DNA of 64,000 nt from Agromyces soli. GTDB taxonomy: Bacteria > Actinomycetota > Actinomycetes > Actinomycetales > Microbacteriaceae. The position numbers were made by a program, and so were the translations under genes. Below are positions 7,280 to 56,790 of this stretch, piece by piece. Every line of letters starts with the position of its first letter. Position 1 is the first letter of the stretch. The notes beneath the pieces are model-generated. The model worked only from the letters and a program-made list of their open reading frames with translations, ran no database searches and was not told the origin of the DNA. The DNA is taken from positions 1,736,001-1,800,000 of the forward strand of contig NZ_CP094533.1 of assembly GCF_022811605.1 (NCBI RefSeq), in the 5' to 3' direction.

Positions 7280-7605
7280 GGGGTCCTCCTTGACGTGGCG
7301 GGTGGATGCCGGTGCCCGGGCCTGTGCGGCCCGGTGCGCCGGTGTGTTCGACGCTAGGGAGGTCGCCGAGGGGGAGGAAGGCCGGGCCGGACACTGTGCC
7401 GGGACCGTCAAGGCGCGGTGCGCGGGCCGACAAACGGTGCGCGGTGCGGCGGTCCGGGGCCGGGTGCGTCGACCCGGGCCAGGCGCTGCGGCCCGGGTCG
7501 CCGGGCGCGGCCCTCGTGCTCGATCGCGCCCTCAATCGCGCCGGAAGTGGCGCTATTGCTCGAACACATCTTCGAATTCGGGCGATTCTCGGGGAGAATC
7601 GAGGC
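7280..7605. other. Divergent intergenic region between cupin and HNH nuclease genes
   Basis: A 326-base gap holding both promoters. Towards the cupin gene a TAGCGT -10-like element reads on the minus strand at 7351-7356. Towards the nuclease gene there is the SOS-like box at 7560-7575 and a GAGAAT -10-like element at 7594-7599, six bases before ATG 7606. I see no small gene in the rest, which is simply GC-rich. Confidence 0.4.
7560..7575 (+). promoter_or_regulatory. SOS (LexA-type) box candidate upstream of the HNH/DUF222 gene
   Basis: The sequence TCGAACACATCTTCGA matches the actinobacterial LexA consensus TCGAAC-N4-GTTCGA with one mismatch (C for G at the first base of the right arm). It ends 18 bases before the -10-like GAGAAT and 30 bases before the start codon, a position suited to repression. 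13E12/DUF222 genes of mycobacteria are known members of the LexA regulon, which supports the reading. No lexA gene is in the window. Confidence 0.55.
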
Positions 7606-46038: not shown

Positions 46039-46118
46039 CGCAGACGTTCACGCCGACGGCTCCGCCGCGGCACCCGCGACGGGGCGACGGATGCCTCGGT
46101 GACACAAGGATGTGCGCA

Positions 46119-47525
46119 GTGGCAGCACCGACCCTCAAGCGCTCGCTCGGCATGTGGGCCATCGTCGGACTCGGTCTCGGGTACATGGCCCCGGTGACCG
46201 TGTTCGACACCTTCGGCATCGTGAGCGAGGAGACCGACGGCGTGGTGCCGATGGCCTACCTCGTCGGCCTCGTGGTGCTGCTGTTCACCGCGGTCAGCTA
46301 CGGCGCGATGGTGCGCGCGTTCCCGGCCGCGGGCTCCGCCTACACCTACACGCGCGAGGCGATCCACCCCGCGCTCGGCTTCCTCGTCGGCTGGGCCTCG
46401 CTGCTCGACTACCTGCTGCTGCCCGTCGTGAACGCGGTCATCATCCGGCTCTACATGGAGCAGTTCTTCCCCGAGGTGCCGGGGTGGGTCTGGGTGGTCG
46501 GCGTCGCGGCCCTCCTCATCGGCCTCAACGTCGTGAGCGTCAAGGCGACCTCGCGGGTGAACGGCGTGCTGCTCATCGCCGCGCTCGCCGGCATCGCGGC
46601 GTTCCTGGTGCTCGCCGGGCTGCAGATCTCGAAGGGCCTGGGCACGGGCACGCTGTTCTCGCTGCAGCCCATCTGGCACGACGGCGTGCAGCTGACGGCC
46701 GTGCTCGCGGGCACCACGATCGTCGCCTTCTCGTTCATCGGCTTCGACGCGGTCACCATGTACGCCGAGGAGGCGAAGAACCCGAACGCGGTGCCGCGGG
46801 CCGTGATGCTGACCGTGCTGATCGGCGGCGCGATCTTCTTCGCGGGGGCGTGGTTCGCGCAGTCCGCGTTCCCGACGCTCGACGGGTTCGAGTACACCGA
46901 CGACACGCTGCCCGAACTCGCGCTCTTCGTCGGCGGCCAGGCCTTCCAGCTCCTCTTCGTGGCCGTCGCCTTCGCGGCTGCCGTCGCCTCGGGGCTCTCC
47001 TCGCACGCGAGCGTCTCGCGGCTGCTGTACGTGATGGGACGCAACGGCGTGCTCGCCCCGAAGCGCTGGTTCGGCGCGGTGAGCCCGCGCTTCCGCACCC
47101 CGGTGTTCACGACGGTGCTCGCCGGGCTCGTCGTGCTGCTCGCGATCACGCCCACGCTCGACCTCATCTCCTCGGTCATCAACTTCGGCGCGCTCATCGC
47201 CTTCACCTTCGTGAACCTCGCCGTCATCGCCCACTACGCGATCCGCCAGGGCCGCCGACGCACCCCCGCCGACGTCGTGCGCTTCATCGTGCTGCCGCTC
47301 CTCGGGGCTGCCGGCACCGGCCTGCTGTGGGTGCACCTGAGCGCCGACGCGATGATCCTCGGCTCCGTCTGGACCGCCGTCGGCCTCGTCATCCTGTTCG
47401 CCGTCACCCGCGGCTTCCGCCGCCCCGTCGCCGAGCTCGGCATCGACGAGGCCGACGGCGCCGACGGGTCCGATGCCGACGAGGCATCCGCGCCCGACGA
47501 GACGCCCACCGTGCCGACGCGCTAG
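46119..47525 (+). CDS. APC-family amino acid / amine permease
   Basis: A permease of about 468 residues with twelve hydrophobic helices. Helix 1 has the broken Gly-rich motif AIVGLGLGYMAPVTVFDTFG, helix 6 SFIGFDAVTMYAEEAKNP, the usual APC substrate-binding features, and the SRLLYVMGRNGVLAPKRW loop. It closely follows the putrescine-importer-like branch, but substrate is not certain. I favour GTG 46119, because AAGGA sits eight bases before it; ATG 46110 overlaps that Shine-Dalgarno. An acidic Asp-rich tail ends the protein. It forms an operon with the amidohydrolase gene 50 bases downstream. Confidence 0.9.
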   Translation: MAAPTLKRSLGMWAIVGLGLGYMAPVTVFDTFGIVSEETDGVVPMAYLVGLVVLLFTAVSYGAMVRAFPAAGSAYTYTREAIHPALGFLVGWASLLDYLLLPVVNAVIIRLYMEQFFPEVPGWVWVVGVAALLIGLNVVSVKATSRVNGVLLIAALAGIAAFLVLAGLQISKGLGTGTLFSLQPIWHDGVQLTAVLAGTTIVAFSFIGFDAVTMYAEEAKNPNAVPRAVMLTVLIGGAIFFAGAWFAQSAFPTLDGFEYTDDTLPELALFVGGQAFQLLFVAVAFAAAVASGLSSHASVSRLLYVMGRNGVLAPKRWFGAVSPRFRTPVFTTVLAGLVVLLAITPTLDLISSVINFGALIAFTFVNLAVIAHYAIRQGRRRTPADVVRFIVLPLLGAAGTGLLWVHLSADAMILGSVWTAVGLVILFAVTRGFRRPVAELGIDEADGADGSDADEASAPDETPTVPTR

Positions 47526-47575
47526 CCCGCCCGGCCGCTCCCCGACCCCCGAACCACCCCCAGAAAGGAACGCGA

Positions 47576-49381
47576 ATGCGCAACCCCACTCGCACCAGGC
47601 GCCTCATGGCGATCGGCACCGCCGCCGTCGTCACCGGGCTCCTCGCCGCATGCAGCCCGGCGACGCCGGCCTCCGACGCGGACGCCGCCGACACGGTGCT
47701 GACGAACGGCTTCGTCTGGACCGTCGACGCCGAGAACAGCGTGCAGCAGGCCGTCGCCATCACCGACGGCGAGATCGTCTACGTCGGCGACGACGCCGGC
47801 GCGAAGCAGCTCATCGGCGAGCGCACCGAGGTGATCGACCTCGACGGCAAGATGCTGATGCCGGGCATGCAGGACGCCCACGTGCACACCTTCCTCGGCG
47901 GCGACAAGCTGACGGCCTGCAACCTCAACTTCGAGTCGCTCACCATCCCGCAGTTCCAGGAGAAGATCCAGGCCTGCCTCGACGAGGAGGGCGACACCGA
48001 CAAGCCGCTCATCGTCGAGACCTGGTACCGCCAGGCGATGCAGCCGCAGGGCGTCACCGTCGACAAGACGGTGCTCGACGCGCTCGACACCGACCGCGCG
48101 GTGCTCGTGTACACGACCGACGGGCACTCGGTGCTGCTGAACTCCAAGGCGCTCGAGGTCGCGGACATCACCTCGGAGCACTCCGGCCCGCCGCACATCG
48201 AGGTCGACGCGAACGGGGTGCCGAACGGCATCCTCGAGGAGGGCGCGGCGTTCATGGCGCGCGGCAAGATCGTGCCGCCGCGCACGCTCGACGAGAGCGT
48301 CGCCTCGGCTTCCGCCGCGATGTCGGCGCTCTCCGCCGTGGGCGTCACGGCGTACATGGACCAGCTCTCGGGCGACGACGTCGCCTCCGCCATGACCGAG
48401 CTGCGCGAGCGCGGTGAGCTCACGACGCGCGTGTTCCTCGCGCCGAACGTCTCCGCCGAGCTCGGCAAGACCGATCCGCGCGCCGCGGTCGACGAGGTGC
48501 TCGCGTACCGCGAGCAGTGGGCGACGGATGCCTCGGCCGAGGAGCCGGGCATCGCGGTGAACAACGTCGCCGAGTTCGGCCTCGACGGCGTGCTGCAGGC
48601 CCCCGCGCTGACCGCGTCGTTCCTCGAGCCGTACTACGTGAACGTCGGCACCGAGGACGCGCCCGACTGGCAGCCCGGCACGGACGCCGGCCCCGAGCCG
48701 GAGTACACGGCCGAGCAGATGGGCGCGATCGTCGCGCTGCTCCTCGACGAGGACATCACGCCGGAGCCGCACGCCATCGGCGACCGCGCGGTGCGCACCG
48801 CGCTCGACGCCTTCGAGATCGCCCGCGCCGAGTCCGACTCGGACACGCCCCTCGCCATCGCCCACGCGGAGTCGGTGCACCCCGACGACCTGGCGCGTTT
48901 CGCGGAGCTCGACGTGCTGCCCGCCATGGGGCTGCAGTGGGCGAAGCCCGCGTTCGACTCGATCGACGCCGCCCAGGACACTCTCGGCCCGGAGCGCTTC
49001 GCCCGCACCGAGCCGATCGGCAGCCTCGCCGACGCGGGTGCGCAGGTCGCGAACGGCAGCGACTGGCCGGTCGACCCGCTGAACCCCTTCGCCTCGCTGC
49101 AGATCTCGATGACGCGTGAGAACCCCGAGGGCGGTGACCGCTTCCCCGGCAAGCTCGGCGAGGACCGCGGGCTCACCATCGAGGAGGCGATCCGCGCGAT
49201 GACGATCAACCCGGCCCGCATCATGCACGGCGATGCCACGAGCGGCTCGATCGAGGTCGGCAAGTACGCGGACCTCATCGTGCTCGACCAGAACCTCACC
49301 GAGGTGCCGGTCGACGAGATCGTCGACACCAAGGTCGAGCTCACCCTGCTCGGCGGGAAGGCGGTCTACGGCGAGCTCTGA
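47576..49381 (+). CDS. Secreted lipoprotein amidohydrolase, YtcJ-like (Amidohydro_3)
   Basis: A 601-residue lipoprotein: signal TRRLMAIGTAAVVTGLLAAC with the lipobox Cys near residue 23. The mature enzyme has the amidohydrolase metal site DAHVHTF (about 102-108), the TTDGHSVLLNSKALE region typical of YtcJ/NfdA proteins, PHAIGDRAVRTALD, AHAESVH and GSDWPVDPLNPFASLQ with the last Asp ligand. Relatives hydrolyse N-substituted formamides and other amides. Attachment outside the membrane is unusual for the family and implies that the permease upstream takes up the product. GAAAGGAACGCGA precedes ATG 47576. Confidence 0.9.
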   Translation: MRNPTRTRRLMAIGTAAVVTGLLAACSPATPASDADAADTVLTNGFVWTVDAENSVQQAVAITDGEIVYVGDDAGAKQLIGERTEVIDLDGKMLMPGMQDAHVHTFLGGDKLTACNLNFESLTIPQFQEKIQACLDEEGDTDKPLIVETWYRQAMQPQGVTVDKTVLDALDTDRAVLVYTTDGHSVLLNSKALEVADITSEHSGPPHIEVDANGVPNGILEEGAAFMARGKIVPPRTLDESVASASAAMSALSAVGVTAYMDQLSGDDVASAMTELRERGELTTRVFLAPNVSAELGKTDPRAAVDEVLAYREQWATDASAEEPGIAVNNVAEFGLDGVLQAPALTASFLEPYYVNVGTEDAPDWQPGTDAGPEPEYTAEQMGAIVALLLDEDITPEPHAIGDRAVRTALDAFEIARAESDSDTPLAIAHAESVHPDDLARFAELDVLPAMGLQWAKPAFDSIDAAQDTLGPERFARTEPIGSLADAGAQVANGSDWPVDPLNPFASLQISMTRENPEGGDRFPGKLGEDRGLTIEEAIRAMTINPARIMHGDATSGSIEVGKYADLIVLDQNLTEVPVDEIVDTKVELTLLGGKAVYGEL

Positions 49382-49407
49382 GCGGTTCTCGCCGGCTTAC
49401 GCCCTGA

Positions 49408-50007
49408 TCACGCCCGCCGGATCGTCGACAGCACCACGTCGAGGGTCCGGCGGGCGTCGTCCGGGCCGATGAGGCCGGCGAGCCAGCGCTGGCTGAGCCC
49501 CTCGACCAGGGCCGTCAGGAGCTCGGCCACGGCCTGCGGTGCCGCGGCCGTCTCGATCGAGCCGTCGGCGAGGCCGCGCAGGATGCCGATGGTGACCTGC
49601 TCGTTCCACCGCTCGGTCGCCCGCCGCACCGCCTCGGCGAGCTCGGGGTCCTCGATGGGCAGCGCGGTCACCTCGTTCCAGATGAGGTTGAGGTCGCGCA
49701 CCTCGGGGGAGTCGTCGAACTCCGCGTGCAGCGCACCGCGCAGCGCCTCGTAGCCGCTCGCCTCGCGGTCGCGGTGCAGCAGGTTCACCGAGGGCGCCCT
49801 CTCTGCGGCGTACTGGAACACCCCGCGCACGAGCGCCTGCCGGTTGGGGAAGTGGTAGTACGTCAGCTGCGAGGTGACGCCGGCGCGCGCCGTGATGTCC
49901 TTGACCACGAACGCGTCGAGGCCGCGCTCGCCGATCACCTGCGCCGCGGCGGCGAGGATGCGGTCGCGCTTGGAGGCGGGCTTCTGCGCCTTCGCGTCAG
50001 TCGGCAT
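49408..50007 (-). CDS. TetR-family regulator (199 aa), second of a pair
   Basis: The helix-turn-helix is at about 14-60: RILAAAAQVIGERGLDAFVV, then GVTSQLTYYHFPNRQALVRG. The C-terminal ligand domain ends with ALVEGLSQRWLAGLIGPDDA, a common TetR_C arrangement. The start at 50007 lies 11 bases inside the preceding TetR gene, so the two are co-translated. It follows the permease-amidohydrolase unit on the opposite strand (convergent ends 26 bases apart) and may not regulate it. Confidence 0.87.
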   Translation of the reverse strand: MPTDAKAQKPASKRDRILAAAAQVIGERGLDAFVVKDITARAGVTSQLTYYHFPNRQALVRGVFQYAAERAPSVNLLHRDREASGYEALRGALHAEFDDSPEVRDLNLIWNEVTALPIEDPELAEAVRRATERWNEQVTIGILRGLADGSIETAAAPQAVAELLTALVEGLSQRWLAGLIGPDDARRTLDVVLSTIRRA

Positions 50008-50641
50008 CCGTCGCCCCGTCTGCGAGGACCGCGCCCGTGGCCAGGGCGAGCAGCTCGAGCCCGCGCTCGGCGGGCAGCAGTGAGGAGCGCACCCGCTGCT
50101 GCAGCCCGTCGACGAGCGCCGTGAGCGCCGTCGCCGTCTCGGCCGGCGCCTCCGGGTGCGTCTCGGCGAGCTGCGGCACCGCCGCCGTAACGAGCCGGGT
50201 CATCCCGCCGTTCCAGCCTTCGAGCGTCCTCGCGAGGGCCGGGCGGATGGCCGGGTCGAACGCCGCCGCCCGCATCGCCTCGGCATATACCCGGTCCTGG
50301 CGGGCAGCCTCGGCGTCGACGCCGATGTGCTGGCTGAGCGCCGTGCGCAGCCGCTCGGCCGGCGGCAGCTCCTGCGGCGGGCGCCGGTACGCATAGTGGT
50401 CGAGCGCCTCCGCGAGCGCCGCCCGCACCAGGTCCTGCCGGTTCTCGAAGTGGTAGTAGAGCAGCCCGAGCGAGACGTCGGCGGACTCGGCGACCGCCTC
50501 GACCGTCACCCCGCGCACGCCGTGCTCGCTCAGCAGCTCCGTCGCCGCCCCGAGGATCGCGGCACGTGTCGACGCGGCCTTCGAGGGCTTCGGCGCCTGC
50601 TCGGGCTTCGATGCCGTCGAGGGCTGCTGCGGTGCGGGCAC
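49997..50641 (-). CDS. TetR-family regulator (214 aa), first of a pair
   Basis: HTH region STRAAILGAATELLSEHGVR and DVSLGLLYYHFENRQDLVRA (about 28-75), then a helical ligand domain ending LVDGLQQRVRSSLLPAERGL. I chose GTG 50641 because TAGAAT lies seven bases upstream on the minus strand, the leaderless pattern seen elsewhere here; the open frame continues to 50785 but crosses the promoter and a palindrome. The overlap with the second TetR gene indicates one transcript. Two tandem TetR proteins with shared architecture suggest duplication followed by divergence. Confidence 0.8.
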   Translation of the reverse strand: MPAPQQPSTASKPEQAPKPSKAASTRAAILGAATELLSEHGVRGVTVEAVAESADVSLGLLYYHFENRQDLVRAALAEALDHYAYRRPPQELPPAERLRTALSQHIGVDAEAARQDRVYAEAMRAAAFDPAIRPALARTLEGWNGGMTRLVTAAVPQLAETHPEAPAETATALTALVDGLQQRVRSSLLPAERGLELLALATGAVLADGATDAD

Positions 50642-50710
50642 GAATCCGATTCTACGGGCGGATATCGCGGCGGCGTGTCGGGTATGCGCGCCGTCGCCCC
50701 GCTCCGTAGT

Positions 50711-50728
50711 TTCGAACATGTCTTCGAA
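50711..50728. promoter_or_regulatory. SOS-like palindrome in the M23 lysin promoter
   Basis: TTCGAACATGTCTTCGAA contains TCGAAC-N4-CTTCGA, the LexA-type layout with the same single deviation as the box at 7560-7575, differing from it only in two spacer bases. It begins at the end of a TAGTTT -10-like element (50707-50712), so a bound repressor would cover the transcript start of the M23 gene. It also lies about 57 bases upstream of the -10 of the divergent TetR gene, so a TetR operator is the alternative reading. Confidence 0.5.
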
Positions 50729-50802
50729 GAACAGGGTTCCGGACGCGGGGCCCGAATTCATCCCAACAGTACGAAACACGAACACGAATGAAAGGAGGGC
50801 GC

Positions 50803-51684
50803 ATGGTTCGCTATCAGCATCCGTTCCCCAAGGCCGCCAACTACGACGCGTCCGATCCGTACGGCATGGAGCCGCCGCCCCCGTTCCGCAATGGGGCGCC
50901 GCACCGAGGGGCCGACTACAACGGGCCGGCGGCGCAGAACCTCGCCCCGGTGCCGGCGATCGCCGAGGGCGTCGTCGACTGGAGCGCCTGGTATGAGGGG
51001 CTCGGCAACGTCGTCACCATCAAACACGCCGACGGCGCCTACAGCGGCTACTGCCACCTCACCGACCGCAACGTGAGCGTCGGGCAGACCATCGCTCGCG
51101 GCGCGATCGTCGGTCGCGTGGGCGGGACTGCGACGAGCGATTTCAGCTACGCACCCCACCTCCACCTCACGATGGGCTGGAGCTCGGCCGCGACCCGCGG
51201 CTCCGGCTCCTACTGGAGCGACCACTTCGATCCCATCCCGTACATCGATCAGCGACTCAACGCACCAGAAACAGGAGACGACATGGCCAAGAGCTACCCG
51301 ACCCGCGACGACTACCGAGGCGACTTCACCCTCGCCATCAACCAGGCCACCCAGCTGAAGAACGCGAACGGCACCGACGCGAACATCGCGGCGACGCCCG
51401 ACGTCGGCCGTCTGTTCGTCACAGGCCACGTGTACGCCCAGGCCGCGGCGGGTCAGGCACTCGACATCTGGTTCATCCTCTCCGACGTCTCGACCGGTGC
51501 GGAGTCGCCGCACTTCGTGGAGCGGGCCGTCGCCGGCCCCGACGGGCGCATCTTCGCGAACCCGACCTTCCAGCTCGGTCTCGCCTCGACGCGCCGCGTG
51601 TTCCTCCGGATCCAGGCGCCGTCGTCGAACACGGCGACGGTCAAGATCACTCGACTCGCGGCGGACGCCACGCTGTTCCAGTAA
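50803..51684 (+). CDS. M23-type peptidase without signal peptide, phage-lysin-like (293 aa)
   Basis: The N-terminal domain (about 10-140) is an M23 peptidase: HRGADYNGP (zinc His and Asp), AIAEGVVDWSAWYEGLGNVV, HADGAYSGYCHL and the closing HLHLTMGW metal motif. A link of about 20 residues leads to a second domain (about 161-293) that I do not recognise, beta-rich with AQAAAGQALDIWFILSDVST and VFLRIQAPSSNTATVKI, possibly wall-binding. There is no signal peptide, as in phage endolysins and unlike the two secreted wall hydrolases at 54-57 kb. AAAGGAGG precedes ATG 50803. AGGAG at 51273-51277 five bases before in-frame ATG 51283 would give the second domain alone. Likely a domesticated or remnant phage lysin. 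Confidence 0.75.
   Translation: MVRYQHPFPKAANYDASDPYGMEPPPPFRNGAPHRGADYNGPAAQNLAPVPAIAEGVVDWSAWYEGLGNVVTIKHADGAYSGYCHLTDRNVSVGQTIARGAIVGRVGGTATSDFSYAPHLHLTMGWSSAATRGSGSYWSDHFDPIPYIDQRLNAPETGDDMAKSYPTRDDYRGDFTLAINQATQLKNANGTDANIAATPDVGRLFVTGHVYAQAAAGQALDIWFILSDVSTGAESPHFVERAVAGPDGRIFANPTFQLGLASTRRVFLRIQAPSSNTATVKITRLAADATLFQ
51273..51285 (+). promoter_or_regulatory. Internal Shine-Dalgarno and in-frame ATG in the M23 gene
   Basis: AGGAG (51273-51277), a five-base spacer and ATG 51283-51285 form a near-ideal translation start inside the M23 gene, in frame, exactly at the domain boundary (residue 161). It would produce a separate 133-residue C-terminal domain, beginning AKSYPTRDDYRGDF. Several phage lysins use such internal starts to make free wall-binding subunits. 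Confidence 0.55.
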
Positions 51685-51711
51685 TCCGAGTGGCGTGAGC
51701 GGCGCATGAAG

Positions 51712-51743
51712 CGGGCGGGGATGCCGGGAGGCATCCCCGCCCG
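51712..51743. terminator. Bidirectional hairpin terminator
   Basis: A perfect 14-bp stem (CGGGCGGGGATGCC and complement) with loop GGGA lies 28 bases after the M23 stop and directly before the stop of the convergent gene at 51745. It can serve both transcripts. Confidence 0.7.
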
Positions 51744-51744
51744 T

Positions 51745-52116
51745 TCAGCTGAACAGCAGCGACGCGAGGACTGCCAACACGACCGCGGCGACGGGCGCCG
51801 CGACGAACATGACGATCGTTGCGACGAGGGCGAACCGGGCGTCCGAACGGCCGAGACCACCGAGCCGGCCGGCGCTCGCAAGCCCCTTCGCCGCGAACAC
51901 GATCGTGGTCACGGTGAGGCCCAGATAGGGGAGGAACCCGATCCAGACGACGATCAGCCCGATCGTCTGGACGGTCGGCGACGGGACGAACGTGAGGACG
52001 ATCGGCACGAGCCAGAATACGGCTGCGACCGCGATGGTCCACGGCGCGAGCTTCCGGGCGGTCGTCGCCGGGCGATTGCTCGGCGGGGCCCAGGTATTCA
52101 CTGGGGTCGTGGTCAT
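51745..52116 (-). CDS. Hypothetical membrane protein (123 aa)
   Basis: A polar, Thr/Pro-rich start (TTTPVNTWAPPSNRPATTAR) is followed by three hydrophobic segments at about 24-44, 50-72 and 95-120, with a short basic loop SAGRLGGLGRSDAR. Its ATG at 52116 overlaps the upstream stop by four bases, making it the last gene of a coupled minus-strand run. No family recognised. Confidence 0.65.
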   Translation of the reverse strand: MTTTPVNTWAPPSNRPATTARKLAPWTIAVAAVFWLVPIVLTFVPSPTVQTIGLIVVWIGFLPYLGLTVTTIVFAAKGLASAGRLGGLGRSDARFALVATIVMFVAAPVAAVVLAVLASLLFS

Positions 52117-52391
52117 GCTCGGGTGCTCCGTTCGAGCTTGCGGGTGCGGGCGCTGCCCAGCGCCCAGCCGGCGGCGAAGGCGCCGACCGCGACCGCGAGC
52201 ACGAGCAGGGCGACGCCCCAGATGCGCTCGGGCGACACCGGCGACAAGCCGCCGACGAAGCCGAAATCGGCGAGGGGCTGATAGGCGAACCATCCGAACG
52301 ACGCGCTCGGCGCCGGGAGCAGGATGAGCACGACCCCGGCCGTCGCGAGGGCCGCCGCGCCGACGCCCATCGCCGCCAGTCCGATCTTCAT
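52113..52391 (-). CDS. Hypothetical membrane protein (92 aa)
   Basis: Two hydrophobic helices (about 3-26 and 58-80) flank a loop GWFAYQPLADFGFVGGLSP; a basic tail GSARTRKLERSTRA ends the protein, so both ends probably face the cytoplasm. Four-base overlaps with the genes on both sides show co-translation. No family recognised. Confidence 0.65.
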   Translation of the reverse strand: MKIGLAAMGVGAAALATAGVVLILLPAPSASFGWFAYQPLADFGFVGGLSPVSPERIWGVALLVLAVAVGAFAAGWALGSARTRKLERSTRA

Positions 52392-52690
52392 TGCTGCTCC
52401 TCCGCGCCGGGTGCCTGGTCACTTGAGCGCGACCGGTCGCGTGGTTGGGGGTCGAGCGCTCGCGCCAGGGCCTGTCCGAGCGCTGGCGCTGGAACCTCGA
52501 TGGCAGGTTCGACGGCGTCGTCGCGCTCCAGTGCAGAGGTCAGACGCTGCAGCAGGTCCTCGGCGGTGAACGTGCGCCAGCGCTCGGGCTCGTCGTACGC
52601 GGAGTCGCGCAGGTCCCACAGCGCATCGATCAGCTGTTCCGTCGTCTGCGCCGCATCGAGGCGCTTCAGGCCGTTCGCGAGTCCGTCCAC
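52388..52690 (-). CDS. Hypothetical helical protein (100 aa)
   Basis: A soluble protein with an acidic helical body (DAAQTTEQLIDALWDLRD and EPERWRTFTAEDLLQRLTSA) and a disordered, charged tail. GTG 52690 is chosen because TACGAT stands exactly six bases upstream (52697-52702), the leaderless pattern. It overlaps the next membrane-protein gene by four bases. No family recognised. Confidence 0.6.
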   Translation of the reverse strand: MDGLANGLKRLDAAQTTEQLIDALWDLRDSAYDEPERWRTFTAEDLLQRLTSALERDDAVEPAIEVPAPALGQALARALDPQPRDRSRSSDQAPGAEEQQ

Positions 52691-52723
52691 ATGCAGATCG
52701 TATTGGGCCGCGGAGGGGTGAAG

Positions 52724-53068
52724 CTACGGCATCCTGCCAGCGAACCGGGCGTAGAGCTCGGGCGACCGATCGCGAAGCCGGCCCCAGAATGCCGCCTCCC
52801 ATGCGTCGGGATCGGCATCGTAGCGCTGCGCCTCGGCCCGGTACCTCTCGAACGCGCGCTGCGCGACCGCTGCGTCCCATGGTCGTCTCGTGCAGTCGTT
52901 CAGGAGCTGCGCCCCGAAGTGCACAACCTCGTCGCGGTACGAGGCGAGGGCCGCCTCGAGCCAGCGCGCGTGGTCGTCCGCGCGCTCGCCGGTCGCGAGG
53001 TAGGCCTCCCACCGTGCGTCGAGCTGCGCACGGAACGGATCGGCTGCTCGCCCGGCATCCACGCTCAT
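52724..53068 (-). CDS. Hypothetical helical protein (114 aa)
   Basis: A soluble helical protein rich in Arg, Asp and aromatic residues, with WEAYLATGERADDHARWLEA, CTRRPWDAAVAQRAFERYRA and WEAAFWGRLRDRSPELYARF. Regular Trp/Tyr spacing suggests a compact helical bundle. TACGCT lies six bases upstream of its ATG on the minus strand, so it has its own leaderless promoter. It is 33 bases from the next gene in the same direction. Function unknown. Confidence 0.6.
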   Translation of the reverse strand: MSVDAGRAADPFRAQLDARWEAYLATGERADDHARWLEAALASYRDEVVHFGAQLLNDCTRRPWDAAVAQRAFERYRAEAQRYDADPDAWEAAFWGRLRDRSPELYARFAGRMP

Positions 53069-53178
53069 GACTGGAGCGTACCGACTCGGTGCGCCGATGC
53101 GTCTGCAACGTACTTGGCCGGCGCTATCGTCGGATCAGCACCGCCGGACGGGCGAGTGCCGGAATGGGTGGAAGCAGG

Positions 53179-53526
53179 ATGAGTAGCGCGGAGCTTGAGG
53201 CGCGGTTTCGGGCGGCGATGAGTGCCGTGGCCGAAGCGGTCCTCAACAGAGGAGCGCGGCGCACCTACGACATCGTTATGGACGGTGCCGGTCAGTTCAT
53301 CGACGAGTACTTCGACTGCGCGCACAGTGGGGCCGCGTACCGCCTCTGGATGGAGATCGGCGACCTCGCCGACGACCCACGTGGGCCGCTGTCCGAGCGG
53401 ATGACGGATGAGATCGGCCGCAAAGCGGCGTCGGAGTGGCTGGCGATCGATCAGTCCTCGCCGCTCGCGGTCGATGCGTACTTCGCGCGCTGGGGATGGC
53501 CGGAGGCGTGGCGGGCAAAGGGATAA
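53179..53526 (+). CDS. Hypothetical protein (115 aa) beside the tRNA cluster
   Basis: A soluble helical protein: SSAELEARFRAAMSAVAEAV, then TYDIVMDGAGQFIDEYFDCA and AAYRLWMEIGDLADDP. GGAAGCAGG lies before ATG 53179; ATG 53164 is an alternative. Divergent from the short-gene cluster and separated from tRNA-Phe by a hairpin. No family recognised; its use of some AT-ending codons (GAT, GGT, CTT) is slightly higher than its neighbours. Confidence 0.6.
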   Translation: MSSAELEARFRAAMSAVAEAVLNRGARRTYDIVMDGAGQFIDEYFDCAHSGAAYRLWMEIGDLADDPRGPLSERMTDEIGRKAASEWLAIDQSSPLAVDAYFARWGWPEAWRAKG

Positions 53527-53558
53527 GTCGCTCGTTGGCCCCAAGCGCCATGAAACAA

Positions 53559-53584
53559 GAAACCCCCGCTCTCGCGGGGGTTTC
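53559..53584. terminator. Bidirectional terminator next to tRNA-Phe
   Basis: A perfect 11-bp stem GAAACCCCCGC / GCGGGGGTTTC with loop TCTC. On the minus strand it is followed by TTGTTTC, so it is a good intrinsic terminator for the tRNA operon; on the plus strand it closes the gene ending at 53526. Confidence 0.85.
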
Positions 53585-53588
53585 GCTG

Positions 53589-53661
53589 TGGCTCCGACCG
53601 GCATCGATCCGGTGACCTTTCGATTTTCAGTCGAACGCTCTACCAACTGAGCTACAGAGCC
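53589..53661 (-). tRNA. tRNA-Phe (anticodon GAA)
   Basis: A 73-base cloverleaf read on the minus strand: acceptor GGCTCTG pairs with CGGAGCC (one G-T pair), D-arm TAGCTCAGTTGGTAGAGC, anticodon loop CTGAAAA with GAA, T-arm ccGGATCGATgCCGG-like loop and discriminator A. CCA is not encoded. Third gene of the tRNA-Glu, tRNA-Asp, tRNA-Phe unit. Confidence 0.95.
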
Positions 53662-53738
53662 TCGGGGCATCCGATGAAACGGTGCCTCGATAAGGAGAAA
53701 GCCCCTTCTCTCGAAAGGGAAAGGGCTTGTCGCCTGAG

Positions 53739-53812
53739 CGACCCTGACGGGACTTGAACCCGCGACCTCCGCCGTGACAGGGCGGCACGCTAACCAACTG
53801 CGCCACAGGGCC
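53739..53812 (-). tRNA. tRNA-Asp (anticodon GUC)
   Basis: A 74-base cloverleaf on the minus strand: acceptor GGCCCTG pairs with CAGGGTC, D-arm GGCGCAGTTGGTTAGCG, anticodon stem-loop CCGCCCTGTCACGGCGG with GTC, T-arm CGCGGGTTCAAGTCCCG and discriminator G. CCA is not encoded. A short inverted repeat (AAGCCC / GGGCTT, 53708-53728 area) lies between it and tRNA-Phe and may aid processing. Confidence 0.95.
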
Positions 53813-53849
53813 TCGTAATGAGACTATTCAATTGTAAAACCTTCGAGAG

Positions 53850-53922
53850 TGACCCCAACGGGATTCGAACCCGTGCTGCCGCCGTGAAAGGGCGGTGTCC
53901 TAGGCCACTAAACGATGGGGCC
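53850..53922 (-). tRNA. tRNA-Glu (anticodon UUC)
   Basis: A 73-base cloverleaf on the minus strand: acceptor GGCCCCA pairs with TGGGGTC, D-arm TCGTTTAGTGGCCTAGGA, anticodon stem-loop CCGCCCTTTCACGGCGG with TTC, T-arm ACGGGTTCGAATCCCGT and discriminator A. First gene of the three-tRNA transcript. Confidence 0.95.
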
Positions 53923-53957
53923 GGGTGGGAGTGCTTGCGCTCTCCCGCCGACAGCCA

Positions 53958-53986
53958 AGCATACGGGTTTCCCGCCGAGATTCCAA
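53958..53986 (-). promoter_or_regulatory. Promoter of the tRNA operon
   Basis: On the minus strand TTGGAA (53981-53986) and TATGCT (53958-53963) are spaced by 17 bases and lie about 36 bases upstream of the tRNA-Glu 5' end. A GCGGGAGAGCGCAAGC GC-rich start region follows. Confidence 0.7.
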
Positions 53987-54097
53987 AACGAGGCCGGCGA
54001 CCGTTCTCACCGCGGGCCGGCGCCCCTTGGACATGCCCGCCGAAATGCCGTTCGCCCCGTGAATCCATGCCTATCGTGGCTCTGATCGCCTCAAGCT

Positions 54098-54160
54098 GAG
54101 CTTGAACCAGAAGCTCCAGCACCGAGCTCGAACACCGAGCTCGAACACCAGCTCGAACAC
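54098..54160 (+). repeat. Five tandem 13-base units in the leader of the M23 gene
   Basis: Consecutive units: GAGCTTGAACCAG, AAGCTCCAGCACC, GAGCTCGAACACC, GAGCTCGAACACC and a final 12-13-base copy AGCTCGAACACA. The first overlaps an exact inverted repeat TCAAGCT-G-AGCTTGA (54091-54105). A TATCGT -10-like element at 54072-54077 would place all of this in the untranslated leader of the wall hydrolase gene. The two central units are identical. The remainder of 53987-54200 shows no gene. Confidence 0.65.
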
Positions 54161-54200
54161 AGAACGGCGCGGGGGCCCGAGCCCGCGTGGACGGGGAACC

Positions 54201-55481
54201 ATGTACCGAACCACAGTCAACCGCCCGACGACGAAGCGCCGGACCCCGGCGCGGCTGCGCCGTGCCCTGGCGACCCTGCTCGCCGCGGGGCTCGCGGTCA
54301 CCGGCACGGTGCTGGGCGCGAGCCCGGCTATGGCCGCCGACTACCCGACGTGGGACGAGCTGCAGGCGGCGAAGGCCGACACCGCGGCCGCCGCCGACGC
54401 GGTCGCCGAGATCACCTCGCTCATCGCCCAGCTCGAGCAGAACGTCGCGACGACGCGCGCCGAGGCCGAGAAGCGGATGGCCGAGTTCCTCGACGCGCAG
54501 CAGCGCTACGACGACGCTGCCCGCAAGGCCGGCGAGATCGAGCAGCTCGCCGAGGAGACCGCGGCCGAGGCCGCCGACGCCAAGAAGAACGCCGGCCAGG
54601 TCGCGGCGCAGCTCTACCGCTCCGGCGGCGGCGACTTGAGCGTCGACCTCTTCCTCGAGTCGGGCGACGAGTTCGCGACCGATGCCCTCCTCTCCAAGCT
54701 CGGCAACATGGAGAAGATGGTCGAGCGCACCTCCGAGGTGTACCGCAGCGCCCAGTCCAAGTCGAACGACGCGGAATCGCTCGGCGAGCAGGCCGAGGTC
54801 GCCAAGGCCGAGCGCGAGAAGCTCCGCATCGCCGCGCAGGACGCGCTCGCCGCGGCCCAGGAGGCGCAGGCGGCCGCGGAGGCCGCGCTGAGCGAGTCGC
54901 AGACGAGGAAGGTCGAGCTCGACCAGCAGCTGAAGTTCATGAAGGACACCGAGGCGAAGACCACGGCGGCCTACCAGGAGGGCGAGCGCATCCGGAAGGC
55001 CGAGGAGGAGAAGCGCCGCCGCGAGGCGCTCGCGGCCGGCTCCCCGGGCACCGTGGCGAGCTCGGGCTGGGCCCGTCCGGCCTCCGGCTACATCTCCGAC
55101 GGCTACGGTGCGCGCCCGATCATCTGCGGCGGCGGCTACTGCTCGAGCGGCTTCCACTACGCCTACGACATCGCCACCGGCTGCGGGGCGCCGATCTACG
55201 CGGCCAACAGCGGCACGGTCTCGATCGCGGGCTGGAGCGGCAGCTACGGCAACTACGTGAAGATCAACCACGGCGGCAACATCTCGACCGGCTACGCGCA
55301 CATCCGCGAGGGCGGCATCCTCGTCGGCGCGGGGCAGTGGGTCTCGGCCGGCCAGCAGATCGCATGGAGCGGCACGACGGGCGCCTCCACCGGCTGCCAC
55401 CTGCACTTCGAGGTCTGGGACGGCTGGGACCGCATCAATCCCGGCCCCTTCATGTCGGCACGAGGAGTGAACCTTGGCTGA
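54201..55481 (+). CDS. Secreted coiled-coil M23 peptidoglycan hydrolase (426 aa)
   Basis: Signal peptide: basic start then RRALATLLAAGLAVTGTVLG and cleavage after SPAMA (about residue 43). Residues about 50-270 form a long Ala/Glu/Lys coiled coil with SGGGDLSVDLFLESGDEF in the middle, the layout of EnvC/RipC-like hydrolases activated by FtsEX. The C-terminal M23 domain (about 300-426) contains FHYAYDIATGCGAPIYAANS, GNYVKINHGG, and HLHFEVWDGW, the zinc ligands of an active lysostaphin-type peptidase. Probably cleaves peptide crosslinks during cell separation. It overlaps the NlpC/P60 gene by eight bases. Confidence 0.92.
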   Translation: MYRTTVNRPTTKRRTPARLRRALATLLAAGLAVTGTVLGASPAMAADYPTWDELQAAKADTAAAADAVAEITSLIAQLEQNVATTRAEAEKRMAEFLDAQQRYDDAARKAGEIEQLAEETAAEAADAKKNAGQVAAQLYRSGGGDLSVDLFLESGDEFATDALLSKLGNMEKMVERTSEVYRSAQSKSNDAESLGEQAEVAKAEREKLRIAAQDALAAAQEAQAAAEAALSESQTRKVELDQQLKFMKDTEAKTTAAYQEGERIRKAEEEKRRREALAAGSPGTVASSGWARPASGYISDGYGARPIICGGGYCSSGFHYAYDIATGCGAPIYAANSGTVSIAGWSGSYGNYVKINHGGNISTGYAHIREGGILVGAGQWVSAGQQIAWSGTTGASTGCHLHFEVWDGWDRINPGPFMSARGVNLG

Positions 55482-56790
55482 GAACCGTACCCGCCCGGTC
55501 TCCCGGGTGAAGCCCGCGACCGTGTTCTCCGCGGTCGCCGTCGGCGCCGTGACGGCGTCGCTCGGCGTCTCCGGCGCCCCCGCCTTCGCCGTCGACTACC
55601 CGTCGTGGGGCGAGATCGAGCAGGCGAAGCAGAACGAGCAGACCAAGCAGGCGGAGATCGCCCGGCTCGGCGAACTGCTCGCGGGGCTGCAGGCGACGGC
55701 GGATGCCGCGGTGCGCGACTCGCAGATCGCCGCCGAGGCGTACCGGCAGACCGTGATCGAACGCGACGAGGCGGTCGAGCGCGAGGCCTCGCTCGGCAAG
55801 CAGGCCGACGAGGCCGAGGCCGTCGCCGAGATCTCGAAGATGCGGGCGGGGCTCATCGCCGCGCACCTCGCGAAGGCCGGCGGCAACGACCTGACCACCT
55901 CGCTCGTCTTCTCGGGCGACAGCGCTGGGCTGCTGAAGCAGCTGGGCATGGCGTCGAAGCTCGGCGAGCAGTCGACCTCGGTCTACGAGCAGGCGCTCGC
56001 CGACCGCAACGCGGCCGACTCGCTGCGCGAGCAGGCCGACGCCGCCGCGAAGGAGCGCAAGAAGCTCGCCGACGACGCGAAGTCCCAGTACGACGACGCC
56101 CAGTCGAAGGCGGATGCCGCGACCGCGGCGGTCGCGGAGCAGGAGCGCCGCTCCTCGGAGCTCTACGCCCAGCTCGCCCGCCTCAAGGACACCACCGCCG
56201 AGCTCGAGCGCGAGCGGGTGGAAGGCATCGCCCGCGAAGAGGCCGAGGAGGCCCTGCGGCCCGACCCGCCCGCCACGGGCGGCGGCAACACCGGCGGGGG
56301 GAACACCGGCGGTGGGAACACGGGCGGGGGCAACACCGGTGGCGGCAACACCGGTGGCGGCGGCACGACCCCGACGCCGACGACGCCCCCGAAGCCGACC
56401 ACCCCGAAGCCGCCGAACCAGGGCGCGGTCGAGTCGGCCATCTGGTACGCCTCGCAGCAGCTCGGCGAGCCCTACCGCCTCGGCGGCGCCGGCCCGGACG
56501 TCTGGGACTGCTCCGGCCTCACGAAGATGGCCTACGGCTACGCGGGCATCTACGTCGGCACGCACTCGGCGACGAACCAGTACTACACGCTCGCGGGCCA
56601 GGGGAAGGCGGTGTCGCTCGGCAGCATCCAGCGCGGCGACCTGCTGTTCTGGGGATCCGGCGGCGACTATTACCACGTCGCGATCTACCTCGGCGGCGGG
56701 CGCATCCTCGAGGCGCCGCGCGAGGGCGTCCCTGTGCGCGAGTACTTCATCTGGGGCAGCCCCTCGGCGGCCGCCCGCCCGACCGGCTGA
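55474..56790 (+). CDS. Secreted coiled-coil NlpC/P60 peptidoglycan hydrolase (438 aa)
   Basis: The N-terminus mirrors the previous gene: signal with TVFSAVAVGAVTASLGVSG and APAFAVDYPSWGEIEQAK, then a coiled coil to about residue 265. A linker of five-fold (GGGNT) repeats with a PTPTTPPKPTTPKPP stretch leads to the NlpC/P60 domain (about 325-438), with catalytic Cys346 in WDCSGLTKMAYG, GDLLFWGSGGDYYHVAIYLG for the His and GGRILEAPREG. It resembles mycobacterial RipA-type D,L-endopeptidases. Start TTG 55474 follows GAGGAG by seven bases and overlaps the upstream stop, so output is coupled to and probably limited relative to the M23 protein. Confidence 0.92.
   Translation: MAENRTRPVSRVKPATVFSAVAVGAVTASLGVSGAPAFAVDYPSWGEIEQAKQNEQTKQAEIARLGELLAGLQATADAAVRDSQIAAEAYRQTVIERDEAVEREASLGKQADEAEAVAEISKMRAGLIAAHLAKAGGNDLTTSLVFSGDSAGLLKQLGMASKLGEQSTSVYEQALADRNAADSLREQADAAAKERKKLADDAKSQYDDAQSKADAATAAVAEQERRSSELYAQLARLKDTTAELERERVEGIAREEAEEALRPDPPATGGGNTGGGNTGGGNTGGGNTGGGNTGGGGTTPTPTTPPKPTTPKPPNQGAVESAIWYASQQLGEPYRLGGAGPDVWDCSGLTKMAYGYAGIYVGTHSATNQYYTLAGQGKAVSLGSIQRGDLLFWGSGGDYYHVAIYLGGGRILEAPREGVPVREYFIWGSPSAAARPTG

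Follow-up and report, generated by a model that had tools for sequence, protein, structure and literature searches.

A solitary gene for a phage-type M23 peptidase in the chromosome of Agromyces soli lies directly behind a LexA-type SOS box, and this box is shared with core SOS genes and conserved ahead of related lysins. The box and the gene constitute an inserted piece of DNA, and comparison among lysins of this kind revealed domain exchange. The starting point was the window, i.e., the whole 64,000-nucleotide stretch of the A. soli chromosome that was analysed. From these features we infer that LexA would bind the box, that DNA damage would induce the lysin, and that the enzyme would be active, released, and possibly used in competition.

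Organization of the lysin cassette

The cassette, which comprises a promoter, the LexA box, and the lysin gene, spans positions 50661–51710 (plus strand), as delimited by alignment with Agromyces mediolanus JCM 3346 (designated as G033), where it is missing at the equivalent place. The palindrome TTCGAACATGTCTTCGAA, located by pattern search and comparison, occupies 50711–50728 with a 16-bp core at 50712–50727, and 75 nt separate the core from the lysin start codon, an ATG at 50803; the first-pass annotation of this DNA had likewise placed it directly ahead of an M23 gene. The lysin open reading frame (50803–51684, plus strand) encodes 293 amino acids and is preceded by a strong Shine–Dalgarno region, GAAAGGAGGG, at 50790–50799 on the same strand. 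The annotation had also placed the box over the −10 region, which is plausible only: a possible −10 hexamer, TAGTTT (50707–50712, plus strand), overlaps the first base of the box core, but a sigma-70 scan of the lysin promoter found no promoter. The TAGTTT sequence is common to this promoter and to the cassettes at the dcd site described below. Together with the box it occurs, at zero mismatch, at four places in 60 Agromyces genomes, all ahead of lysins, although the pattern was derived from the lysin promoters themselves and its specificity for lysins is partly built in.

At one exact site per about 423 kb, about 4e-4 sites are expected in the 161-nt gap between the starts of the lysin gene and the divergent gene for a TetR protein (49997–50641). 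A chance palindrome was rejected on the grounds of the rarity of the site in the genome, its retention ahead of lysins, and its absence near other M23 genes. A strong GC-rich hairpin without a T run is present at the right junction of the cassette (51710–51741; z −4.5 for 51684–51760) and is partly retained at the empty site.

The insertion and its flanks

The sequence of the window up to 50660 and from 51711 onward forms one contiguous stretch in G033, with 4 bp between the two parts, and the box and the lysin thus appear to have come, or gone, as a single piece of about 1.05 kb. The empty site in G033 retains the TetR gene (88% identical) with neither box nor lysin, and in A. mediolanus RA 14A.10 (G034) the TetR gene (91%) also lacks a box there, the left flank being present and followed by other DNA. 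These loci bear on whether the palindrome is the operator of the neighbouring TetR protein rather than a LexA site, as its position between these divergently oriented genes would allow. Because the G033 empty site keeps the TetR gene without box or lysin, and recA, lexA, and imuA' are preceded by the same type of box, we rejected a link of the site to the TetR protein, a reading that now has very little probability; the first-pass annotation had named binding by this protein among the findings that would overturn a link to LexA.

The ten flanking genes (46110–56787) contained no capsid, portal, holin, or integrase family when tested against PHROGs, in agreement with the earlier remark that none is seen nearby. 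The matches among them were to M23/tail-type families (two secreted hydrolases) and to PHROGs of unknown function (two TetR genes and an amidohydrolase). A prophage remnant accompanied by other phage genes was therefore unsupported among these ten genes. No holin, lysis, or phage gene was seen adjoining the lysin, nor was an immunity gene; the surrounding genes, for TetR and small proteins, also occur at the G033 empty site.

The lysin is predicted to be an M23 endopeptidase

The M23 catalytic domain (Pfam residues 33–125; 50899–51177, plus strand) matches Pfam with an E value of 5.5e-20, and H34, D38, H85, H119, and H121 are invariant in an alignment of 12 lysins. We take these residues to have the catalytic roles of their counterparts in lysostaphin-type enzymes. 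The protein is predicted to be an active M23 endopeptidase with intact motifs. A hydrophobic N-terminus is absent: the best 15-residue Kyte–Doolittle mean within the first 45 residues is −0.75, whereas the comparable values for three secreted M23 proteins are 1.88 to 2.16, which bears out the initial description of an M23 peptidase without signal peptide. The M23 domain is followed by a linker and a C-terminal domain of 133 amino acids (51283–51681, plus strand), which matches part of a phage endolysin, is beta-rich in a low-confidence structure model, and probably serves in wall binding. Foldseek placed lysostaphin, in an entry titled as an antimicrobial peptidase, among the nearest solved folds of the M23 part; this support is limited to that part, as full-length alignments with lysostaphin have rmsd values above 17. 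PADLOC gave no match for the three lysins submitted to it.

Phage ancestry

The N-terminal domain of the lysin matches 82 of 50,697 phage records, including endolysins of Curtobacterium and Arthrobacter phages, and none of these 50,697 records covers 80% of the whole protein. Only one phage record matches the C-terminal domain, that of the Microbacterium phage WilliamStrong endolysin (36% over residues 49–131 of 133, E 2e-5); three membrane proteins are encoded behind the endolysin in that phage. IMG/VR also yielded a gene of this kind, two (L106 and L107) of the four loci found having been read; in L106, judged by eye, tail-like genes lie on one side of it and an amidase-like gene on the other. 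Since the N-terminal domain, the C-terminal domain, and the L106 locus all give phage matches, we regard the enzyme as being of the phage-endolysin type, and its descent from phage endolysins is highly probable. Given these matches, the lack of phage families of the above kinds in the ten flanking genes, and the clean insertion, the initial description of a phage-type lysin outside a prophage stands.

The palindrome as a LexA box

The pattern TCGAACNNNN(C/G)TTCGA has nine exact sites in the 3.81-Mb single-contig genome, whereas the reversed control pattern has none. Seven of the nine are ahead of genes and two lie within coding sequence. Apart from the site at the window lysin (L003), those ahead of genes precede DUF222/HNH genes (L002, L005, and L007), a broken DUF222-like frame (L001), a gene of the Rv2578c-family radical SAM type (L006), and a gene for a small cysteine-rich protein that is HNH-like by eye and for which Pfam gave only a sub-threshold DUF6510 match (L004). 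The window contains a second exact site at 7560–7575 (plus strand), ahead of a DUF222/HNH gene identified with Pfam, where the first-pass annotation had seen the same layout. All nine exact boxes have the asymmetric form TCGAAC-N4-CTTCGA and none has the symmetric GTTCGA, a form that is common among the sites seen elsewhere in Agromyces and Plantibacter. This one genome contains five DUF222-type genes or remnants behind SOS boxes (L001, L002, L005, L007, and L122), of which L001 looks broken.

A looser core, CGAAYNNNNSTTCG, gave 62 strand-wise matches in the genome versus 3 for the control. These fall at 51 places, 28 within called genes and 23 outside. Fifteen of the latter front SOS-type genes and lysins, namely recA (two sites), lexA, imuA' (two sites), uvrA, Rv2578c-type, DUF222-type, and HNH-like genes, and two lysins, and the remaining eight front other genes. 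The two recA sites have one mismatch each and the uvrA site has one; lexA is present in the genome and its own box is weak, with two mismatches. The identity of imuA' is taken from the NCBIfam name ImuA'. A scan of this kind had been proposed as a check on the LexA reading, and its outcome at recA, lexA, and the DnaE2 mutagenesis gene imuA' is favourable, the weak lexA site included; likewise, the use of a different box by the SOS genes of this genome, which would have spoken against LexA, was not what we found, as recA, lexA, imuA', and uvrA carry the same box type. A LysM-like gene, recognised by eye, lies to the left of and divergent from lexA (L090:826–1050) with several TTCGAA motifs between them, an arrangement that resembles the mycobacterial lexA/Rv2719c layout.

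Boxes with one or two mismatches are widespread in the genus Agromyces. Among 30 genus loci sampled, 23 are ahead of an imuA'-like gene, three ahead of a DUF222 gene, three ahead of a lysin, and one has no called gene; the names were given by eye from likeness to tested members, and two of the three DUF222 genes were themselves tested. For LexA of S. venezuelae, a published study gives the preference tCGAAC-N4-GNNCGa (PMC9380542). In TCGAAC-ATGT-CTTCGA, the left half agrees exactly with this consensus and the G that opens the right half is replaced by C. Since recA, lexA, imuA', uvrA, an Rv2578c-family gene, and DUF222 genes of this genome have the same type of box ahead of them, the palindrome is very likely a LexA box.

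Conservation of the box ahead of related lysins

The closest relatives of the lysin in 60 Agromyces genomes are those of G033, with two divergent copies, and G034. At the family level, homologues are rare and were found in 9 of 398 sampled genomes at E 1e-14, five of which (G000, G109, G232, G321, and G357) carry boxed cassettes; G033 and G034 were added from the genus search. As read by eye, the boxed lysins stand alone amid ordinary chromosomal genes. Tandem arrays are found in Plantibacter, with three lysins in G232 and two each in G321, G357, and G109, the first of the two in G109 being a different M23 protein. An alignment search at the order level, in which six candidates were scored in each genome listed, matched 3 of 396 genomes (the gene itself, G137, and, more weakly, G053). 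Boxed cassettes are thus known in two genera only, Agromyces and Plantibacter, and tandem arrays only in the latter. Relatives of the M23 domain also occur in Nannocystis and in other Myxococcales or deltaproteobacterial records (L095–L098 and L100–L105).

Counting the first gene of each cassette, the box precedes all nine promoters of stand-alone, signal-less lysins in the seven Agromyces and Plantibacter genomes, 41–75 nt before the start codon. Eight of these boxes have at most one mismatch; the ninth, on the plus strand of G033 (TCGAATGTGTATTCGA), has two and was recognised by eye. No box was found within 400 nt of the called start of three signal-bearing relatives (two in G318 and one in G122) or of the genes in phage-like loci of G137 and G404, and none in five phage- or prophage-like loci scanned whole (L086, L106, L107, L110, and L111). 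L086 and, with less clarity, L088 were taken for prophages by eye, and the signals of L081–L083 were likewise judged to be Tat-like; hydropathy values were obtained for two of these three, L082 and L083. One observation counts against this reading: the signal-bearing relative L081 has an exact box, TCGAACTCGGCTTCGA, about 460 nt upstream of its called start, beyond the 400 nt scanned.

As a control, 27 other Agromyces M23 loci were examined, 26 with a called gene and one without. None of the 26 genes has a box within 200 nt of its start, the starts being those of a simple gene caller and three genes having less than 200 nt of upstream sequence (10, 150, and 165 nt). A pattern consisting of the box, a spaced Shine–Dalgarno sequence, and an ATG was present at four places in the 398 family genomes (control, 0), each at a lysin; it was written after the lysin promoters had been seen, its specificity is partly built in, and its spacing excludes the window lysin, whose own is longer. 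Because the same box is present at core SOS genes and at nine of nine lysin promoters, LexA control of the lysin, which the first-pass annotation had put forward as an inference, is now supported by comparison and can be predicted with little doubt.

A second cassette at the dcd site

The genome contains a second boxed lysin-like gene (L130:711–1448, minus strand; near C1:1121094) that encodes 245 amino acids and adjoins tRNA-Gly(CCC) and dcd. A. mediolanus has other boxed lysins at the same place, and cassettes of this kind may have a hotspot at dcd within the clade. Of 30 dcd loci fetched from the 59 found, three carry a cassette and nine have no called dcd start. The L130 promoter is nearly the same as that of the G033 minus-strand and G034 lysins described below (73 of 85 bases), and the N-terminal domain is different. 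This protein, which is called M23-like by eye only, had no match in Pfam, NCBIfam, PADLOC, or the phage records, and the whole protein had none in PHROGs.

Domain exchange and a possible internal start

The minus-strand lysin locus of G033 and that of G034 agree at 100 of 109 aligned bases in the promoter and at 394 of 435 in the M23 part, and their C-terminal parts are unlike (166 of 243 aligned bases in 384 columns). By this comparison, the domains of the lysins appear to have been exchanged behind near-identical promoters.

In the window lysin, an internal Shine–Dalgarno sequence (AGGAG) and an in-frame ATG (Met161) lie at the junction of the linker and the C-terminal domain (51273–51285, plus strand). 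Nine of the 12 lysins have such an in-frame junction ATG with a Shine–Dalgarno run of at least 5 ahead of the C-terminal domain; the junction ATGs were chosen after inspection, four of the nine represent one Plantibacter orthologue, and the prophage-like L086 is among them. Among 42 other internal ATGs of the 16 genes examined, not one has a run of this length; this set includes the junction-like Met166 of L130, whose run is 3. Among 247 internal ATGs of 45 window genes, 8 have such a run. The internal start may yield a C-domain-only product. PMC9430671 describes endolysins for which a single gene gives rise to both the full-length protein and the C-domain. Such two-polypeptide endolysins (PMC9430671; CTP1L, PMC4777826) share the in-frame internal start before the C-terminal domain, and the short product is only predicted here.

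Discussion

We propose that a small cassette, consisting of a LexA-repressed promoter and one phage-type M23 endolysin, has moved between places in these chromosomes. DNA damage would activate RecA, LexA would be cleaved, and the lysin would be expressed. The lysin, perhaps along with the C-terminal domain alone from the internal start, would build up in the cytoplasm and, without a signal peptide or a holin in the cassette, would be kept there as long as the membrane is intact. Death of the damaged cell, or its lysis by a phage, would then release the lysin, which would cut the walls of susceptible neighbours in a manner resembling the release of SOS-induced bacteriocins. We favour action on neighbours for the following reasons: the lysins vary behind a similar promoter, occur sporadically, are inserted at different places, and are sometimes arrayed. 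In these respects they resemble weapons more than a fixed self-lysis device. Against it stands the fact that no export signal, lysis gene, or immunity gene was seen adjoining the lysin; moreover, domain exchange is also normal among the endolysins of phages, and polymorphism is no proof of competition. The restriction of the known boxed cassettes to two genera, and of tandem arrays to one of these, likewise counts against it. The explanation as a whole, a mobile LexA-repressed cassette whose lysin is released from dying cells against neighbours, has in our estimation an even chance of being right, a value set by its weak step, the competitor-directed role.

The main rival is that the lysin lyses the damaged producer from inside, in an altruistic or explosive manner, and thereby releases DNA, vesicles, or public goods. 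The endolysin-like architecture without signal peptide and the SOS box ahead of the gene would suit such a role, and there is a precedent in Pseudomonas aeruginosa, where the pyocin endolysin Lys drives explosive lysis under SOS control (PMC4834629). However, both hol and lys were required in that case to lyse E. coli (PMC4834629); self-lysis would need membrane failure or a holin from elsewhere, and no holin family was detected with PHROGs in the ten flanking genes, nor did visual inspection of the genes that follow boxes of one strict pattern reveal a holin. Several unlike lysins per genome would also be unnecessary for this purpose, and we consider self-lysis rather unlikely, if a serious contender. 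The cassette might instead be the decaying remnant of a prophage lysis module, without a function for the host, in which a LexA-controlled phage promoter has survived. Homologues do occur in the apparent phage lysis region of L106 (by eye) and in the prophage-like locus L086, but the catalytic motifs are intact in all 12 aligned members (the L130 lysin, which has no Pfam match, was outside the alignment), the box is kept in two genera and absent from the five phage- or prophage-like loci scanned whole, related cassettes have appeared at other places and grown in tandem, and the insertion is a clean 1.05 kb; decay is accordingly improbable. A slightly smaller probability still attaches to a response to phage infection, in which SOS raised by infection or prophage induction would let the lysin burst the cell early or spoil the timing of the phage; SOS control and the phage origin of the enzyme would fit, whereas the three lysins tested had no PADLOC match.

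The ingredients of the proposed cassette, i.e., SOS boxes, M23 endolysins, SOS-driven endolysins of prophages and tailocins, and bacteriolysins, are all known. M23 phage endolysins such as WilliamStrong gp22 (by its C-terminal domain), gp12 of Curtobacterium phage Fairywren (by its M23 domain), and the IMG/VR L106 protein have the same combination of a catalytic domain and a variable C-terminal domain, and the lysin here lacks a signal peptide; it differs from them as a solitary chromosomal gene behind a LexA-type box with no holin or virion genes adjoining. Lysostaphin and zoocin A also contain an M23 endopeptidase domain; they carry a targeting domain, are exported, and are accompanied by immunity factors, whereas neither an export signal (by hydropathy) nor an adjacent immunity gene was seen here. 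Colicin-kind SOS bacteriocins are LexA-controlled, cytoplasmic, and polymorphic; the cassettes differ in that no lysis or immunity gene was seen and the payload is a wall hydrolase. Closest in regulation is the Lys/Hol pair of the P. aeruginosa R/F-pyocins, which combines a phage-type endolysin with bacterial SOS control (PMC4834629), the latter being predicted in our case. The pyocin Lys is encoded with a holin inside a cryptic prophage or pyocin cluster, and Lys is described as highly conserved among complete genomes (PMC4834629), whereas the present cassettes are solitary, sporadic, and polymorphic and reside in a Gram-positive family. Among the matches listed in open PMC titles and the beginnings of abstracts, a source with no preprints and few subscription papers, we found no account of solitary chromosomal LexA-controlled endolysins. 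What appears to be new is the way they are combined in Gram-positive chromosomes, where a LexA-type box is directly followed by an endolysin gene that is solitary, mobile, and polymorphic.

The exchanged versions of the cassette in relatives suggest that bacteria have adopted a lysin triggered by damage for purposes of their own. We put forward only tentatively, at somewhat less than even probability, that the cassettes form a new class of Gram-positive weapons, i.e., mobile, polymorphic, LexA-controlled endolysin cassettes that capture phage lysins behind a fixed SOS promoter, whose catalytic and binding domains are swapped like the killing domains of colicins, and whose products are released when the damaged producer dies. 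If the proposal is true, environmental actinobacteria would have domesticated phage endolysins in the form of single genes under SOS control that lie outside prophages and tailocins. The case would bear on how an enzyme leaves the cell without a holin or a signal and on how producers avoid harm, and the cassettes would offer a natural collection of lysins with shuffled domains. They would also provide a testable case of a phage lysis enzyme turned into a damage-triggered weapon or self-lysis device.
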